64,000 nt of DNA from an uncultured Chthonomonas sp. (lineage in GTDB: Bacteria; Armatimonadota; Chthonomonadetes; Chthonomonadales; CAJBBX01). Below the pieces are notes generated by a model. It did not search any database and was not told the DNA's origin. It saw only the letters and a program-made list of their open reading frames with translations. Within the stretch, counting starts at the first letter, position 1, and every line of letters starts with the position of its first letter. The DNA lies in assembly GCA_903951425.1 (NCBI GenBank), contig CAJBBX010000066.1, positions 1-64,000 on the forward strand, given 5' to 3'. Both the position numbers and the translations under genes were made by a program. Of the stretch, positions 39,907 through 48,372 are shown in pieces.

Positions 39907-40048
39907 ACCGTACTCCTGTAGCGTGTCTTGGCCGAACCGCTGCCCGCCAGGGCCATTCGCAGCCGGCTGCGCCTAGGATTCACCGCGGCATCACCGAACG
40001 CCTGCCGTCGCGGTCCACAATGATGCATCTCTGCTTAGGAGAGCCTCC

Positions 40049-41887
40049 ATGAGCGCAGCATCCGACCGCCGCACGGCGGAGTTCCTGGCGATCGCGGACC
40101 AGTTCAGGTTGGGCCATCTGGTCACAGAGTCGGCGCATCCCCTGACCCGGGACCTGAGCGGCGCGGCCGAAGCCGGAGTAGACAGGGCGCTGGAGCTGCT
40201 CTTCGCCGTGGACGCCGACGTGGTGGAGGGCTTCCGCCGGTTCACGGCATCGGGGCTTGCCCTGGAGATGGGGAACGCCGCGGCTGAGGCGCTTTCCCGC
40301 GGAGGGCGGCTCTTCTTCACCGGTTGCGGGGCCACCGGGCGGCTGAGCATTCAGCTCGACTCGATCTGGCGGAAGTACTGGCGGCGCATGGACGGCGATG
40401 CCGCGTACGCCGCCGACATGGCCGACCGCACCTTCAGCGTCATGGCGGGCGGCGACTTCGCGCTCATCAAGTCCGTCGAAGGGTTCGAGGACTACGCGTC
40501 GTTCGGCAAGAAGCAGATCACCGACCTTGGCGTGGGACCTGGCGACGTCGTCTTCGCCATCACCGAAGGCGGAGAGACCTCCTTCGTCATCGGCACCGCC
40601 TGGGCGGGACTTGAGGCGGGCGCGAAGGTCTACTTCGTCTACAACAACCCTGACGACCTGCTCCGCTCCCGTGTGGCACGGAGCCGCGAAGTGCTGGACG
40701 ACGATCGCATCCGGAACGTGAACCTGACCACGGGGCCCATGGCGATCCGCGGCTCCACCCGGATGCAGGCGACCTCCAGCGAGTTGATCGCCATGGTAAC
40801 CGTGCTGGAGACCGCCCTCTGCCTCCTGTTGCGTAGTCGACCGGAGGGGCATCCCCTCACGCCGGAGCGGGTGGGACCGCACACGCTGGCGGCGCTGGAG
40901 CAGGCCCACGCTGAACTCAAGGCGCCCTCGTTCGTCTGTTCGCTTGCACGGCTCGCCACTCTGGAGGAGGCGGCCTACCGGTGCGGCGCCAAGGCCACGT
41001 ACCATGCCGACGGCCTGGGCATCGACGTGCTGACCGATACCACCGAGCGCTCCCCCACCTTCTGCACTCCGCCGTTCCGCAAGTTCGACGACCCCGAAGG
41101 CGCCGAGTCCTGGGTTTTCCTCTTCACCCCGCCCGACGAGACGCCCGCCGCCTGGACACGGCTGCTGGGCCGCGCGCCCCGCACCGTGCAGTGGAACGCG
41201 GACGATGTCCGCAGCATGGTCGACGTCGCCGTGGCCGATAGGCAGTGCGCGGTCGTGAACAGGATCGGCGGGGCTGAGCTCATGCGCTTCCGCATCGGCC
41301 AGGACGGCTTGCAGGCACGACAGGTGAACCCCGGAGACGTGGCGCTGGCCATCGCAACAGCCTCGGAACTGACCGATGAGGTGGGACGGAGCTTCTACGC
41401 GGATGCACTCAACCGCTGCGCGGCGGCCGGCGCACGCGCGGGCCTACTGCTCGTATCGCCCGACCCCGAAGCCCGGTGCACTCCCGAGACGCCGCCCGGC
41501 GCCGTCTGCGTTCGCCTGCCTGTGCCCCGGACGGACCTCATGCTTGACGGCGTGACCCGCGTCGCCGCCAAGATGGCATTGAACGCCTTGAGCACCAGCA
41601 TCATGGTCCGCTTGGGCCGCGTGATGGGCAACACCATGATCTGGGTTGTGCCCAGCAACCTGAAGCTCATAGACCGGGCCACCCGCTACGTCGCGGACCT
41701 GGCGGGCATGGAGTACGCCGAGGCCTGCGCCGACGTCCACGAAGCCATCGAGTACGTCGCTCCACGCATGGAGGCCGGGCAGACCTACCCGCCGGTGGTC
41801 GGCTTGGTCACCCTCAGGGCGCTGCAGGGCCTCACGTTCGAGCGGGCGGAGGAGCAGCTGCTGGCGGGCCACGGCCCGGGACGATGA
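40049..41887 (+). CDS. GCKR-like double-SIS protein related to MurNAc-6-phosphate etherase
   Basis: The product probably binds a phosphorylated sugar and may regulate a kinase, or it may be a lyase. The 612-residue length matches vertebrate glucokinase regulatory protein. The first SIS domain contains FTGCGATGRLSIQLDS, ITEGGETSFVIG and GSTRMQATSSELIAM, equivalent to MurQ motifs. The second SIS domain is degenerate. The last 110 residues contain KMALNALSTSIMVRLGRVMG and PSNLKLIDRATR, matching the end of MurQ and GCKR. The catalytic Glu region of MurQ is not conserved, so etherase activity is doubtful. AGGAG precedes the ATG. Confidence 0.8.
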   Translation: MSAASDRRTAEFLAIADQFRLGHLVTESAHPLTRDLSGAAEAGVDRALELLFAVDADVVEGFRRFTASGLALEMGNAAAEALSRGGRLFFTGCGATGRLSIQLDSIWRKYWRRMDGDAAYAADMADRTFSVMAGGDFALIKSVEGFEDYASFGKKQITDLGVGPGDVVFAITEGGETSFVIGTAWAGLEAGAKVYFVYNNPDDLLRSRVARSREVLDDDRIRNVNLTTGPMAIRGSTRMQATSSELIAMVTVLETALCLLLRSRPEGHPLTPERVGPHTLAALEQAHAELKAPSFVCSLARLATLEEAAYRCGAKATYHADGLGIDVLTDTTERSPTFCTPPFRKFDDPEGAESWVFLFTPPDETPAAWTRLLGRAPRTVQWNADDVRSMVDVAVADRQCAVVNRIGGAELMRFRIGQDGLQARQVNPGDVALAIATASELTDEVGRSFYADALNRCAAAGARAGLLLVSPDPEARCTPETPPGAVCVRLPVPRTDLMLDGVTRVAAKMALNALSTSIMVRLGRVMGNTMIWVVPSNLKLIDRATRYVADLAGMEYAEACADVHEAIEYVAPRMEAGQTYPPVVGLVTLRALQGLTFERAEEQLLAGHGPGR

Positions 41888-41947
41888 GCCGTCTCGCATC
41901 GGCCATAATGAGAGCGATGAAGCGATAGCCGGTCAGGAGGCGCCCGA

Positions 41948-43942
41948 GTGGCAACACAACTGAAGGCCGCACCCGACGGCCACGCTGAGCCCGGTCGCGC
42001 CGCGGCCAAGGTCAGGGCCGTAACCTGGCGTTCGTGCCTGGCGGCGTTCGTCCTGCTCTGGGTGAATGCCTACTGGGTGGTCCAGATGGAGCAGATTCGC
42101 TACTCCGCCCACCCGACGACCATCTCGCTCTTCTTCAACCTCATCTTCATCCTGCTCGTGATGACGCTCGTCAACCGGGCGGTGGAGCGCCGGGCTCCGC
42201 GGCTTGCCTTCAACCGGGCCGAGCTTCTCTTCGTCTACGCCGTGCTGGCCATCGGCTCCTGCGTCTGCGGTCATGACACCTTCCAGGTGCTGGTGCCCAT
42301 GCTGACCTGGCCTTACCAGTACGCCGATGCATCGAACGGCTGGCAGTCGCTCTTCATCGACCCGCACATGGCCAAGTACCCCTTCACATTCCCGTTCAAG
42401 GACCTGATGAAGGGCTACTACCTGGGCAATGACACGCTCTACCGGATGGTCTACATCAAGGCCTGGCTACCGGTTGCGCTGACCTGGTCCTGCTTCCTTG
42501 GCGTTATGATGTTCGTGATGCTTTGCATCAACTCCGTGCTCCGAAAGCAGTGGACCGAGAGCGAGAAGCTCTCTTATCCCATCGTCCAGCTCCCGCTGCA
42601 GATCTCTAGCGAGCAGTCGTTCGCGCCGAAAACGGGGCTCTTCCGCAACCGGCTGTTCTGGTTCGGATTCGTGATCGCGGCAGCCATCGACTGCATCAAC
42701 AGCCTGAACGTCTACTACCCAGGCATCCCCACGGTCTTCACGCCGGGCCGCGGATCCAGCTTCTTCAACCTGGCCGACTTCGTCACCAACAAGCCCTGGA
42801 ACGCCATCGGCTGGACGCCGCTCTCCTTCTACCCGTTCCTGATCGGGCTGGGGATGCTGATGCCGGTGGACTTCCTGTTCTCGTGCTGGTTCTTCTATAT
42901 CTTCTGGAAGTTGCAGATCGTCATCTCGGTGGCCAACGCTTGGGACCAGGATCCCCGCTTCCCCTATGCCAACGACCAGGCATTCGGCGGCTACATCGCC
43001 TTCTGCGTCTACAGCCTCTGGCTGAGCCGCGGCTACCTGAAGCAGGTGGCATTGCGGGCATTCGGCCGGCCGTCGGAACTGGACGACCGCGATGAACCGG
43101 TCTCCTACCGCACTGCCTTCATCGGCATGGCGGCCGGCATGGCGTTCCTGCACTGGTTCATGTACAAGCTCGGCATGGGCCTCTGGCTCCCCGCGGCGTT
43201 CTTCACGATCTACTTCTCCCTGGCCCTCTCCATCACGCGGATGCGGGCGGAGATGGGCACGCCGATCCACGACCTCCACTGGACCGGGCCGGACTGGATC
43301 CTCACCGAGACGCTGGGCCAGCGGGTGTTCACGCCGGGGCAGCTCACGGCATTCTCGATCTGCTACTGGTTCAACAGGGCCTACCGGTCCCACCCCATGC
43401 CGCACCAGCTTGAGGCCTTCAAGATGGCCGAGCAGACCAACTCCGAGTACAAGCGGTGGTTCTGGGGGCTCTGCGTCTTCGGGTTCATCGCGGGGGTCGT
43501 GGCGTTCTGGGCCATGTTGCACCTGATGTACGACTACGGAGCTCGAGCGCGGTCGATGGCATCCTTCGGTCCCGAGGCCTACACCCAGCTCGAGGGCTGG
43601 CTCAAGACGCCCAAGAAGTCCAACTTCGTGGCCCAGCTGGCCATCCCCGTGGGATTCCTGACTGCACTCTTCCTCCAGTACATGCGTGTGCGGTTCACCT
43701 GGTGGCCCTTCCATCCGCTGGCCTACGCCGTGACCGCCAGTTGGGAGATCAACCTTGTCTGGATGCCGCTCTTCTTCGCGTGGCTCCTGAAGGTAATCCT
43801 CCTCCGCTACTCCGGCAGGGCGGGCTTCCAGCGCTCGGTGCCCTTCTTCATGGGCCTCATCATGGGACAGTTCGTGGTGGGCAGCCTCTGGAACGTCTAC
43901 GGCATTCTGCGCGGGGTTCCAACCTATCAGTTCTGGCAATAG
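41948..43942 (+). CDS. DUF6785-type polytopic membrane protein
   Basis: This is a putative transporter of unknown substrate. The 664-residue protein has about 12-14 hydrophobic segments, beginning near residue 27 (SCLAAFVLLWVNAYWVVQ). Features include AELLFVYAVLAIGSC, a conserved-looking WTESEKLSYPIVQLPLQ between helices, and MGLIMGQFVVGSLWNVYG at the end. It resembles the DUF6784/DUF6785 oligopeptide-transporter-like proteins of Armatimonadota, Planctomycetota and Verrucomicrobiota. GTG 41948 has AGGAGG seven bases upstream. It lies 60 bases after the GCKR-like gene and 33 before GH27, so all three may be one operon. Confidence 0.75.
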   Translation: MATQLKAAPDGHAEPGRAAAKVRAVTWRSCLAAFVLLWVNAYWVVQMEQIRYSAHPTTISLFFNLIFILLVMTLVNRAVERRAPRLAFNRAELLFVYAVLAIGSCVCGHDTFQVLVPMLTWPYQYADASNGWQSLFIDPHMAKYPFTFPFKDLMKGYYLGNDTLYRMVYIKAWLPVALTWSCFLGVMMFVMLCINSVLRKQWTESEKLSYPIVQLPLQISSEQSFAPKTGLFRNRLFWFGFVIAAAIDCINSLNVYYPGIPTVFTPGRGSSFFNLADFVTNKPWNAIGWTPLSFYPFLIGLGMLMPVDFLFSCWFFYIFWKLQIVISVANAWDQDPRFPYANDQAFGGYIAFCVYSLWLSRGYLKQVALRAFGRPSELDDRDEPVSYRTAFIGMAAGMAFLHWFMYKLGMGLWLPAAFFTIYFSLALSITRMRAEMGTPIHDLHWTGPDWILTETLGQRVFTPGQLTAFSICYWFNRAYRSHPMPHQLEAFKMAEQTNSEYKRWFWGLCVFGFIAGVVAFWAMLHLMYDYGARARSMASFGPEAYTQLEGWLKTPKKSNFVAQLAIPVGFLTALFLQYMRVRFTWWPFHPLAYAVTASWEINLVWMPLFFAWLLKVILLRYSGRAGFQRSVPFFMGLIMGQFVVGSLWNVYGILRGVPTYQFWQ

Positions 43943-43975
43943 GCCAACGGCCAACGCACATTTGGGAGGCGCCCC

Positions 43976-45940
43976 ATGCTCACGACACTGCTGGCCCTGG
44001 TCATCGGACTGGCGCCGACGAACGGCACGGTAGCCCGGGCCAACGAGTGGCGGCTCGAGAAGGCCGACCTGAGCCGGATGTCCGCGGGATGGGGCAAGGC
44101 GCTGGCCAACGCGTCGATCCAGGGAAAGGGCCTGAGCGTCGGGGGCAAGGCGTTCGAGCGCGGCGTGGGGACGCACGCCTCCAGCACGCTCCGGCTCGAC
44201 CTGCACGGCACGGCCACGCGGTTTCGGGCCTGGGTCGGCGTCGATGACGAGGTAGGCGCCGGCCTTGGGAGCGTCGTCTTCCGCATCTCCGCCGACGGCA
44301 AGCGCATCTACGACAGCGGCCTGATGCATGGGGGCGAACAGGCCCGGCCGGTGGACGTGGACCTGCGCGGATGCCGCGTCCTCACGCTCAGCGCCCTGCC
44401 CGGCGACGACGGCATCGACTTCGACCACGCCGACTGGTGCGACGCCGTCATCACCCATGCCGGCAGCGCGCCGGCGCCGGTCGTGCCGCCCAAGGAGCCC
44501 TTCATACGCCTGACGCCGCCCACGCCTCGGCAACCTCGCATCAACTGGCCTCGGCTCTTCGGCGTTCGGCCGGGCTCGCCGATCCTCTTCACCGTGCCCA
44601 CGTCGGGCGACCGTCCCGTGCGGTTCCGCGCCTACGGCCTTCCGCCGGGCGTGACGATCGACGCCGCTACCGGCTCCTTCCAGGGCTCCATGGCAGCCGA
44701 GGGTGACTGGCCCGTCCGGGTGACCGCCACGAACCGCTCGGGCGCCTGCACCCAGACCGTGACGCTCCGTTGCGGTGAGACGTTGGCCCTGACGCCGCCC
44801 ATGGGCTGGTCCACCTGGTACATGGCCTACACGAGCATCAGCGACGCGTTCGTGCGGCGGCAGGCCGAGGCCATGCGGGCCAGCGGGCTGGCCGACCACG
44901 GCTACAGCTACATCAACATCGACGACGGCTGGAACATCCGTCTCGGGGCCGACGACACCGTCCTCGGCGGCGCTCCCCGCGATGGGCAGGGCAACCTACG
45001 GCCTAACGCCCTCTTCCCCGACATGCGGGGCCTGTGCAACGCGATCCACGGACAGGGCCTGAAGGCGGGCATCTATATCTCGCCGGGGCCATCCACCTGC
45101 GCCGGCTACGAGGGATCCTGGCGGCGCGAGGCGACCGACGCGAAGCAGTTCGCCGACTGGGGCTTCGACTTCCTAAAGTACGACTGGTGCTCCTACGGCA
45201 ACGTGGCAGGCGGCTCCGACCGGGTCCACATGGTGCGGCCCTACCAGCTGATGGGCGACCTGCTGCGGCTCCAGAAACGCGATATGGTCTACAACCTGTG
45301 CCAGTACGGCATGGGTGAGGTACAGCGCTGGGGCACGCAGGTGGGCGGAAACTTCTGGCGCACGACCGGCGACCTGGGCGCGACCTCGGACCTCTGGGAG
45401 AGCACCGCCGCCTGCGGGTTCGGCCAGGCGGGCAAGGAGGCCTTTGCCGGGCCCGGCGGCTGGAACGACCCCGACAATATCCTCCTCGGGCGCATCCTCT
45501 GGCGCGGCGCACTGGTGCCCACGCCGTTGACGCCCAACGAGCAGTACACCTACATGAGCCTCTGGTCGATCCTAGCCGCCCCGCTGGTACTGTCAGGCGA
45601 CCTGACCCAGATGGACGACTTCACGCTCGGGCTGCTCTGCAACGACGAGGTGATCGCCGTGAACCAGGACGTCCTGGGCATCCAAGGCAAGCCCGTGCTC
45701 CGGAGCGAGGAGACCGAGGTCTGGGCCAAGCCCCTGGCCGGCGGCGACCTGGCCGTGGGGCTCTTCAATCGGGGCGACACGGCGGCCCGCATGTCGGCGC
45801 CGTGGAAGGCCCTGGGCATCTCCGGGCAGTGGAAGGTCCGGGACCTGTGGCGTCAGCGCGGCCTCGGTATCCATGAGGATCGGTTCGGCTCCACGGTGCC
45901 ACGGCACGGCGTCGTCTTCGTCCGGCTCAGCCGGATGTGA
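43976..45940 (+). CDS. Secreted GH27 alpha-galactosidase with NPCBM and Ig-like domains
   Basis: The enzyme likely releases terminal alpha-galactose. Residues 1-22 form a signal peptide. Residues about 25-165 are an NPCBM domain (LSVGGKAFERGVGTHASS). Residues about 190-265 are a putative Ig domain (LPPGVTIDAATGSFQG). Residues about 270-570 are the GH27 barrel, with TPPMGWSTW, YINIDDGW, nucleophile Asp in FLKYDWCSYG and acid/base Asp in RTTGDLGAT. A C-terminal beta domain follows. GGGAGG lies six bases before the ATG. It follows the DUF6785 gene and ends at a hairpin. Confidence 0.93.
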   Translation: MLTTLLALVIGLAPTNGTVARANEWRLEKADLSRMSAGWGKALANASIQGKGLSVGGKAFERGVGTHASSTLRLDLHGTATRFRAWVGVDDEVGAGLGSVVFRISADGKRIYDSGLMHGGEQARPVDVDLRGCRVLTLSALPGDDGIDFDHADWCDAVITHAGSAPAPVVPPKEPFIRLTPPTPRQPRINWPRLFGVRPGSPILFTVPTSGDRPVRFRAYGLPPGVTIDAATGSFQGSMAAEGDWPVRVTATNRSGACTQTVTLRCGETLALTPPMGWSTWYMAYTSISDAFVRRQAEAMRASGLADHGYSYINIDDGWNIRLGADDTVLGGAPRDGQGNLRPNALFPDMRGLCNAIHGQGLKAGIYISPGPSTCAGYEGSWRREATDAKQFADWGFDFLKYDWCSYGNVAGGSDRVHMVRPYQLMGDLLRLQKRDMVYNLCQYGMGEVQRWGTQVGGNFWRTTGDLGATSDLWESTAACGFGQAGKEAFAGPGGWNDPDNILLGRILWRGALVPTPLTPNEQYTYMSLWSILAAPLVLSGDLTQMDDFTLGLLCNDEVIAVNQDVLGIQGKPVLRSEETEVWAKPLAGGDLAVGLFNRGDTAARMSAPWKALGISGQWKVRDLWRQRGLGIHEDRFGSTVPRHGVVFVRLSRM

Positions 45941-46006: not shown

Positions 46007-47599
46007 CTAAGCCGCGGGCGTCGCCTCCACGACCTCAGCGGCCTCAACGGCGGCTGGGCCGGACATTCGGCTCACCAGGTCCTGCAGCTTGATGCCCGTC
46101 ATGGCCTCGATGACCGGCGGCACCTGCGAGATGATGCCGGTAATCTCCGACGTGATGCGGCCGGCGCCGATTCCGCCCTCGCCGCCGGCGCCTGTGTTGA
46201 CGAGTACGATCTTGTCGATGCGCGACAGCGGCGCCGAGATGGCCTCGGCGATCTGCGGCAGCTTGTCCACGAGCATGCTCGCCACGGCCGCGTCGTTGTA
46301 GGCGCGGAACGCCTCGGCGCGCTTCAGCATTCCCTGCGCCTCGGCAAGGCCGCGAGCACGGATCGCCTCGGCTTCGGCCAGACCGCGGGCCTCCACGGCC
46401 TTGGCCTCGGCAAGGCCCTTGGCTTCGATGGATGCTGCCTCGGCGAACGCCTTGGCCTTGTTCACCTCGGCTTCGGCAGTACCCGTCTTCTGGACCACTT
46501 CGGCCTGCGCGGCTCCCGACATTCGGGCGGCCTCGGACTGCCCCAGCGCGGTGGTCTTGAGGCGGAACTGCTCGGCTTCGGCGATCGTCTCGATCCGGCG
46601 CCGCTCGGCCTCGGCCGGGCGCTGCACCGTGGCTGTGAGCTCCTTCTCGCGACGTAGGATTTCCTGCTCTTCCATCTGGGTCTGCTTCTGCTTGGCGATG
46701 ATCTCGACCTGGAGCTCCTGCTCCTTAACGGCCTGCGCGGTGGTGTACTTCTGCAGGTCGTAGGAGAGGTCCGACTCGGCCTTCTTCTGGTTCACCGAAG
46801 CGTTGTAGCCCTGAACCTGCAGCTTGTAGTCACGCTCGGACTCCGCGATCTTGGTGTCGGCCAGGTACTTGGCCGTGGCGGCTTCCTGGGCGGCCTGCGC
46901 GGAGCGGATCGTGGCGTCGCGGTTGGCGTCAGCCTCGCCGATCTGTGCGTCTCGCTTGACCTGCGCGATCCTCGTCTTACCGATGGCCTCCAGGTAGCCG
47001 CGGCTATCGCTGATCTCGCGGATCGTGAAGCTGACCACCTCCAGACCCATGTTGGTCAGGTCACCGGCGGAGACCTCAGCTACTTTCTGGGCGAAAGTGT
47101 CATGGGCCGCGTAGACCTCTTCCACCGTCAGGGTGCCGAGGATGGCGCGCAGGTGCCCGGCCACGGTCTGGTAGGCGATCTGCTTGATCTCTTCCTTGGT
47201 CTTGTTCAGGAACTGCTCGGCGGCGGTGCGGATGGAGACATCGTCGCCGCGGACCTTGATCTGGGCCACGCCGTCCACCTTGATGGGCACGCCCATCTTG
47301 GTGTACATCTCGGGCGTGACAATATCCAGGGTGATGAGCTCCAGGGACATGGTCTCGCAGCGCTCAAGGATCGGGTTGATGAGCGAACCGCCGCCCTTGA
47401 CCACTCGGAATCCGAGCCGATGGCGCTCACCGTTATCGTCGGTGATCGTCTCGCCCTTTCCTCCGGAGATGACCAGAACCTCGTTGGGTCCAACCTTGCG
47501 GTAGAGCTTGCTGTAGATGGTGACCAGGGTGAGCAGCAGGAGCACTACCAGTAGCGCTCCGGTGCCGATGAGCTGGATCATTGGGACGCCAGGGGGCAT
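46007..47599 (-). CDS. Flotillin-like SPFH membrane protein
   Basis: Flotillins organise membrane microdomains. The 530-residue product starts at ATG 47599 (GGAAG upstream). A membrane helix at about residues 8-30 (GTGALLVVLLLLTLV) precedes an SPFH/PHB domain to about 220. A long coiled coil follows, with Ala/Glu repeats GLAEAKAVEARGLAEAEAI. The end is a hydrophobic-tailed segment with GAGGEGGIGAGRI. Length matches YuaG/FloT. The NfeD-like gene lies 53 bases upstream on the same strand, as in known yuaF-floT pairs. Confidence 0.93.
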   Translation of the reverse strand: MPPGVPMIQLIGTGALLVVLLLLTLVTIYSKLYRKVGPNEVLVISGGKGETITDDNGERHRLGFRVVKGGGSLINPILERCETMSLELITLDIVTPEMYTKMGVPIKVDGVAQIKVRGDDVSIRTAAEQFLNKTKEEIKQIAYQTVAGHLRAILGTLTVEEVYAAHDTFAQKVAEVSAGDLTNMGLEVVSFTIREISDSRGYLEAIGKTRIAQVKRDAQIGEADANRDATIRSAQAAQEAATAKYLADTKIAESERDYKLQVQGYNASVNQKKAESDLSYDLQKYTTAQAVKEQELQVEIIAKQKQTQMEEQEILRREKELTATVQRPAEAERRRIETIAEAEQFRLKTTALGQSEAARMSGAAQAEVVQKTGTAEAEVNKAKAFAEAASIEAKGLAEAKAVEARGLAEAEAIRARGLAEAQGMLKRAEAFRAYNDAAVASMLVDKLPQIAEAISAPLSRIDKIVLVNTGAGGEGGIGAGRITSEITGIISQVPPVIEAMTGIKLQDLVSRMSGPAAVEAAEVVEATPAA

Positions 47600-47652
47600 G
47601 TCATGTCTTCCTTTCCTCGAACGTTGCGGGTCAGTCGGCCTGTCGGGCGCCG

Positions 47653-48372
47653 CTACCCATCCATGGCTATCACGTGCGCGGTGCCCTTCTCGACCCTGCG
47701 CACCCGAACGCTGGCGCCCACGGCGATGAGTTCGTCGCCGTCGGCCACCGCGCGAAACGACTGCCTTGAGCCCATATGGGTGATGCAGACCGTACCCGCG
47801 GACTGCCCCATGATGGGCGCCGTCACCTTTCCGATGATGCCGCAGATGTCCTGCTCGCGGCCGTGGCTGCTGGACTGTGCGCCGCCGAAGAAGCGGCAGA
47901 TGATCCACCAGGAGGTGTAGTAGAGGCCCGCGCCGCCGCCCGCGGCGAACAGGAGGCTGGTTCCCACGCCGGCCCCGCCCAGACGGCTCAACACGCCGCC
48001 GCCGCCCACGCCGACGAGCAGGCCCATCAGTGTCATGGGGTTGACGTATGCTAGGAGGTTGGCGCGGCCGATGCCGTCCTCGGCTCCGGCGTCATGCTCA
48101 AGGTGGCCACCGTCGTGGCCGTGGTGACCGTGGGACGCCTCCAGGCTGTGCCCGGAGTGGCCAACATCAGCGACATGGCCTGCGCCGCCGTCGTGGCCGC
48201 CGATGTGGCCGGCGCCGCCATCGTGGCCCGCAACGTGGCCTGCGCCCTCGCCGCCTGCGCCGCCATGGGCATGGCTGATTGCGTGGGTCACGCCGCCCAT
48301 CAGCAGATTGAAGCCCATGTAGACGCCGCCGAGCAGCAGGCAAGTCCAGTATACGATGTCCAACGGATGCAT
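47653..48372 (-). CDS. NfeD-like membrane protein with His-rich loop
   Basis: NfeD-like proteins partner with flotillins. The 239-residue product starts at ATG 48372 with AGGAG ten bases upstream. Residues 7-29 are a first membrane helix. Residues 30-93 form a His/Gly-rich loop with 16 histidines. Two or three further helices follow (about 105-165, LLVGVGGGGVLSRLGGAG). The C-terminal 65 residues (IIGKVTAPIMGQSAGTV) are an OB-fold NfeD domain. The His-rich loop is not part of the family as usually described. It sits upstream of flotillin. Confidence 0.87.
   Translation of the reverse strand: MHPLDIVYWTCLLLGGVYMGFNLLMGGVTHAISHAHGGAGGEGAGHVAGHDGGAGHIGGHDGGAGHVADVGHSGHSLEASHGHHGHDGGHLEHDAGAEDGIGRANLLAYVNPMTLMGLLVGVGGGGVLSRLGGAGVGTSLLFAAGGGAGLYYTSWWIICRFFGGAQSSSHGREQDICGIIGKVTAPIMGQSAGTVCITHMGSRQSFRAVADGDELIAVGASVRVRRVEKGTAHVIAMDG
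48094..48285 (-). repeat. His/Gly-rich repeat in the NfeD-like gene
   Basis: Units such as GHDGGAGHI, GHDGGAGHV and GHHGHDGGH repeat imperfectly. Codons for Gly-His (GGCCAC) dominate. It encodes an extramembrane loop that could bind Zn, Ni or Cu. Confidence 0.85.

Follow-up and report, generated by a model that had tools for sequence, protein, structure and literature searches.

A predicted OPT-fold transporter of the DUF6785 family in a likely genus-level gene trio with a two-SIS MurQ/GKRP-family protein and a GH27 hydrolase

Barley Yellow Stripe 1 (HvYS1), a member of the OPT family, has been proposed to work by a proton-coupled elevator mechanism, and neither of its domains is reported to have other structural homologs as judged by DALI (PMC9691689). 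In bacterial ribokinase operons, a transporter gene of the ABC or MFS type is followed by the gene for ribokinase. GKRP is thought to descend from MurQ, as stated in a passage of PMC3613411 that cites Veiga-da-Cunha 2009. Here we describe three consecutive genes in a 64,000-nucleotide stretch (the window) of contig CAJBBX010000066.1, part of the 6.08-Mb draft genome (G000) of an uncultured Chthonomonas species of the phylum Armatimonadota. They encode a two-SIS protein of the MurQ/GKRP family, a membrane protein with DUF6785 and DUF6784 domains, and a GH27 glycoside hydrolase. The membrane protein is very probably a transporter with the OPT fold, and the trio is likely a genus-level unit; the main value of the locus lies in this fold assignment for a large DUF family and in the link of that family to ribokinase, rather than in the trio itself.

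The trio consists of three plus-strand open reading frames, laid out as follows:

39907-40048: divergent intergenic region of 142 bp, between a minus-strand Gfo/Idh/MocA oxidoreductase gene and the plus-strand trio
40049-41887, plus strand: two-SIS MurQ/GKRP-family ("GCKR-like") gene, 612 residues
41888-41947, plus strand: 60-bp gap with a Shine-Dalgarno-like AGGAGG ahead of the GTG start of the DUF6785 gene
41948-43942, plus strand: DUF6785 + DUF6784 membrane protein gene, GTG start, 664 residues
43943-43975, plus strand: 33-bp gap with a Shine-Dalgarno-like GGGAGG ahead of the GH27 gene
43976-45940, plus strand: GH27 glycoside hydrolase gene, 654 residues

The middle protein matches DUF6785 (PF20581, E 4.6e-155, 517 bits) and DUF6784 (PF20580, E 3.6e-30, 105 bits), both over the curated cut-off and in order. 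Its AlphaFold2 model, built on an alignment of 23 paralogs, has a pLDDT of 89.3 and a pTM of 0.91. Searched with Foldseek against 350,542 PDB chains at a threshold of E 0.001, this model returned only two significant matches, both of them structures of barley YS1 (7wst, E 3.5e-9; 7wsr, E 5.6e-8), with a TM-score of 0.59-0.66 and a probability of 1.00. The predicted fold agrees with that of YS1 over almost the whole chain, at a sequence identity of 13%, and the match appears specific because the YS1 domains are reported to have no other structural homologs (PMC9691689).

At the level of sequence, the family reaches the OPT profile (PF03169) only at its margin. Five OPT matches were found in the 61 related genomes surveyed, three of which are DUF6785 proteins. 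In single-genome searches these family members score 27.8-33.6 bits against a cut-off of 25.8; in hmmscan two of them drop out, and a single member (L277) stands at the cut-off with 25.8 bits, colinear over positions 343-612 of the OPT profile. The window protein itself gave no PF03169 match in the Pfam scan, and phmmer and hmmsearch found no match for DUF6785 in the PDB. Alignment with hhalign against two OPT-like proteins is weakly positive (E 3e-4 to 3e-3, with reversed controls at 0.18-0.47). Because the model matches the OPT fold and one family member reaches the Pfam OPT cut-off, the protein is very probably a transporter, which the preliminary description had considered possible. A literature search found no paper naming DUF6785; the predicted OPT fold would turn an anonymous membrane family into candidate transporters, 24 of them in this genome (one gene being split). 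Members occur in 55 of the 61 relatives, and none were found in 14 well-known control genomes or among plasmid records.

Gene order was compared in three species, the window genome and its congeners G001 and G002. In G001, the two-SIS gene and DUF6785 reach a contig end, and the final 141 residues of that DUF6785 protein open another contig, where GH27 comes next. G002 has DUF6785 next to GH27 at the start of one contig and the two-SIS gene at the start of a different one. The two-SIS and GH27 proteins are 87-91% identical across the three species, and the divergent intergenic region has the same length in both congeners. The agreement in gene order makes a genus-level unit likely. Shine-Dalgarno-like AGGAG/GGAGG sequences precede all three starts and neither the 60-bp nor the 33-bp gap contains a terminator-like hairpin; the trio is probably co-transcribed in this genus, a single mRNA being what we infer from this layout. 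The reading frames and Pfam matches bear out the gaps and shared orientation first described for the trio, and the single operon drawn from them is likely within the genus, given the three species, the spacing and the Shine-Dalgarno sites, but is not conserved beyond it.

The GH27 product is, judging by its sequence, an ordinary enzyme that is probably exported. It has a hydrophobic N-terminus followed by NPCBM, He_PIG, Melibiase_2 (E 1.7e-42, 146 bits against a cut-off of 23) and Melibiase_C, and both catalytic motifs, KYD and WNDPD, are present and aligned to PDB relatives. The closest of these, the putative alpha-galactosidases 4nzj (E 3.7e-89) and 4ogz (E 1.9e-85), share the catalytic domain, the preceding Ig-like domain and both motifs, whereas the N-terminal NPCBM module is additional in the window protein.

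The neighbourhoods of DUF6785 orthologs give a first indication of what the transporter may carry. Orthologs of the window copy are 57-72% identical across the order, and in eight genomes of six genera and two families (G005, G006, G007, G008, G009, G010, G011 and G012) a ribokinase gene lies immediately downstream; all three DUF6785-linked kinases that were tested score over the ribokinase equivalog cut-off (TIGR02152). Two of these genomes, G008 and G010 of genus g7, also have a GH27 gene farther downstream. Such loci repeat the order of bacterial ribokinase operons, transporter gene then ribokinase, but with DUF6785 in place of an ABC or MFS transporter and, in the window genus, with ribokinase elsewhere: rbsK lies on a separate contig (C163 of G000), and GH27 takes the adjacent place beside DUF6785. 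While HvYS1 carries Fe(III)-phytosiderophore, the context here is one of sugar kinase and hydrolases with no sign of metals. A sugar is therefore a plausible substrate, and because ribokinase directly follows the orthologs and GH27 lies nearby in G008 and G010, the context favours a monosaccharide, pentose or hexose, without singling out galactose. The earlier proposal of alpha-galactose as the transported sugar is not supported by anything beyond the adjacent GH27 gene, and the orthologs pair with ribokinase instead. BadF-type kinases (PF01869), found in nearly all genomes, do not discriminate.

We tentatively propose, at somewhat less than an even chance, that within this genus the three genes form a unit for scavenging sugars, probably co-transcribed and built around an OPT-fold secondary transporter, the functions of all three genes being predicted. 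The exported GH27 enzyme would split a terminal sugar, of alpha-galactose type to judge from its family, off an external glycan; the DUF6785/DUF6784 protein, as an elevator-type symporter by analogy with its modelled fold, would import the small sugar; a kinase encoded elsewhere, here possibly rbsK on the other contig and in relatives the attached ribokinase, would phosphorylate it; and the two-SIS protein would bind the sugar phosphate, acting on it enzymatically at a single composite active site or else sensing it. The near-invariant P-loop and E144 of the two-SIS protein and its GKRP fold support phosphosugar binding. Should DUF6785 indeed carry sugars, OPT-fold transport would extend past peptides and metal chelates.

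Several observations weigh against this proposal. We know of no OPT transporter that carries sugars, the known ones carrying peptides, glutathione or metal chelates. DUF6785 neighbours are mixed family-wide, and for 45 of 101 members no neighbouring gene less than 150 bp away runs in the same direction. The window genome encodes 13 ABC sugar-binding-type proteins (SBP_bac_1) elsewhere, so that sugar uptake in itself does not require DUF6785; the absence of an ABC sugar transporter, noted earlier, holds locally but not for the genome. Outside the genus, moreover, the two-SIS gene shows no linkage to DUF6785: about 14 other genomes of the phylum have full-length two-SIS orthologs, and the neighbourhoods examined in other genera contain no homolog of the DUF6785 or GH27 genes of the window. 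Three genomes with two-SIS orthologs (G032, G059 and G049) lack DUF6785 altogether. Co-conservation, which the preliminary description had itself named as decisive, thus fails outside the genus, and the trio as a phylum-wide system was rejected; the two-SIS gene appears to have joined the DUF6785-GH27 pair only in the window genus.

This restricted distribution, together with the scattered and often solitary DUF6785 copies, would also be expected if the three genes merely stood in a row by chance and had separate functions, in a genome with poorly ordered operons. We regard this as quite unlikely, given that order and gaps are conserved in three species at the identities stated above, that DUF6785 and GH27 lie near each other also in genus g7, and that the short gaps carry ribosome sites.

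The surroundings of the two-SIS gene suggest how the trio may have arisen. The next gene in the window lies outside the unit:

46007-47599, minus strand: flotillin gene, convergent to the trio, with an NCBIfam FloT match under the model cut-off

The two-SIS gene comes after a flotillin gene and its small partner in G009 and G011; the window has the flotillin pair beyond DUF6785-GH27, on the side away from the two-SIS gene. Because flotillin lies just upstream of the two-SIS gene in G009 and G011, the DUF6785-GH27 pair may, we infer, have been inserted between the two. Flotillin and a small membrane partner are thus near the two-SIS gene, with changed orientation, in the window (46007-48372) and in two other genomes of the family (L067 and L069).

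In the sugar-scavenging proposal, the window copy is one of many DUF6785 proteins. A broader version of it, in which DUF6785/DUF6784 would be an unrecognised and strongly expanded lineage of bacterial OPT-fold proteins turned to sugar transport and a main uptake route for mono- or oligosaccharides in Armatimonadota, the role of each copy being set by the hydrolase and kinase genes beside it, seems to us rather unlikely. Several other copies adjoin genes for GH29 with sulfatase, GH43, PL8, MocA and DUF6259. Carbohydrate genes are visible among the neighbours, but as the list for the 72-gene control covers 25 of its 124 families, we claim no enrichment. The DUF6785 genes of the window genome (L010-L031) are single and scattered, many without operon partners; their neighbours include GH29 with sulfatase (L017), an HD-domain gene followed by GH123 (L014), DUF6259 (L018), and APH with a polysaccharide deacetylase (L026). 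In G020 (L193) and G018 (L196), a second DUF6785 copy, 37% identical and in the same orientation, precedes the ortholog of the window copy. In several genera, members of another DUF6785 group have a RecN/SMC-like gene immediately downstream (L239, L254, L256, L265 and L011).

The two-SIS protein, the sole member of the MurQ/GKRP family found in the window genome, matches GKRP_SIS_N in Pfam (E 6.6e-9) and falls short of the NCBIfam MurQ cut-offs (148.2 bits against 168; 116.9 against 302). With GKRP (4bb9, 3w0l) it has in common the architecture of two SIS domains plus lid and the fold, its AlphaFold2 model (pLDDT 86) matching GKRP over the whole length with TM-scores of 0.69/0.70 at an identity of 15-18%; MurQ is matched over part of the length. 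With MurQ (4s12, 4lzj) it shares a homologous SIS1 and lid (E 4.6e-38 with a profile), but the two SIS domains are fused in one chain, SIS1 has lost the Glu83 motif, which SIS2 keeps, and the P-loop is lost from SIS2. Its principal sequence features are:

SIS1: P-loop GCGATGRLS, residues 92-100; E144 at the position of MurQ Glu114
SIS2: invariant DTTERSPTF, residues 330-338, containing E333
C-terminal lid: K508...R546

Residue conservation was assessed in 87 homologs. In SIS1, the P-loop GCG(A/S)TGRLS and E144 are invariant or nearly so, and xSxWR stands in place of the MurQ motif DASECPPTFG, which holds Glu83. No P-loop is present in SIS2, which has an invariant DTTERSPT(F/Y), with E333 in 85 of the 85 homologs that have residues there. 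By hhalign, DASECPPTFG of MurQ aligns to DTTERSPTFCTPP of SIS2; the alignment is strong over the C-terminal half as a whole (E 2.8e-28) and weak for SIS2 alone (E 6.7e-5). The two glutamates, which we take to be catalytic in E. coli MurQ and number accordingly, therefore do not lie within one SIS domain: the Glu114 position is in SIS1 and the Glu83-like motif only in SIS2. Because SIS1 has lost the Glu83 motif while SIS2 keeps it and has lost the P-loop, the sequence suggests one composite, pseudo-dimer-like site per fused protein. A similar motif is presumably kept in SIS2 of human GKRP, which we note as a lead only.

Such a site would be compatible with a different function for the whole unit, in which DUF6785 keeps the chemistry of OPT transporters (peptides, glycopeptides or muropeptides, metal chelates) and the two-SIS protein acts as a fused MurQ-type N-acetylmuramic acid (MurNAc) 6-phosphate etherase with a composite site of E144 and E333, serving cell-wall recovery with GH27 as a passenger. 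We consider this unlikely, although the OPT fold of the model and the MurQ-like motif of SIS2 with its invariant E333 agree with it, and so does part of the genomic context. The two-SIS gene adjoins NamZ in G032 and GH20C in G038; in Planctomycetota (L177, L179 and L180) it is divergent to AnmK-MurQ-(SSF symporter), with NamZ alongside in L177 and L179. The window genome has AnmK and one NamZ and no other MurQ-family protein. In family f1, each genome with AnmK except the incomplete G003 has MurQ or the two-SIS protein, never both, and across the 61 genomes AnmK co-occurs with either protein (37/9/6/9; Fisher p 0.007, uncorrected for kinship). Against it, the AnmK link is not significant among MurQ-less genomes (p 0.27), canonical MurQ coexists with the two-SIS protein in Planctomycetota and in five Armatimonadota genomes, the SIS2 motif loop is of low confidence in the model, leaving the composite site to the sequence, and DUF6785 orthologs pair with ribokinase. 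A plain replacement of MurQ, tempting from the pattern in f1, is made doubtful by the coexistence and the p of 0.27. Because canonical MurQ is present in the Planctomycetota loci, it is improbable that the two-SIS protein simply duplicates it; it would rather be either a second MurNAc-pathway enzyme or a regulator.

The regulatory alternative, that the two-SIS protein acts like GKRP, inhibiting a sugar kinase (ribokinase or AnmK, for example) under the control of a sugar phosphate and so coupling uptake to kinase control, is likewise improbable in our view. It would fit the full-length GKRP architecture, the loss of MurQ Glu83 from SIS1, seen also in the GKRP alignment, and the kinase genes nearby in some genomes (ROK in G009 and G011, AnmK in Planctomycetota). 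No partner kinase is conserved beside the two-SIS gene, however, and both Glu motifs are retained, which suggests catalysis. To our knowledge, no such kinase control has been described in bacteria, and a literature search found no paper on GKRP together with MurQ.

Whichever role it has, the two-SIS protein belongs to a bacterial family of at least 520 loci, the best 80 of which are in Verrucomicrobiota, Armatimonadota, Planctomycetota and Acidobacteriota; among the matches listed, the nearest named record is an Armatimonadetes metagenome-assembled genome (90% identical). A eukaryotic derivation was rejected on these numbers. The GCKR architecture first noted for the protein stands, but its description as eukaryote-like is misleading, the family being widespread in bacteria and part of MurQ/GKRP; the two-SIS family thereby gives GKRP a counterpart in bacteria that can be put to the test. 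The context elsewhere points to MurNAc recycling or to no fixed context, most Verrucomicrobiota loci showing no link to MurNAc genes. In that phylum, a gene resembling ribosome recycling factor (by eye) follows the two-SIS gene in 8 of 72 loci (L103 and others), which is a housekeeping setting and not that of a sugar operon. The family falls into two deep clades. For the second of these, the gene upstream of the two-SIS gene, a homologous one in two families (L075 and L076), overlaps it; in L075 this upstream gene is DUF6259.

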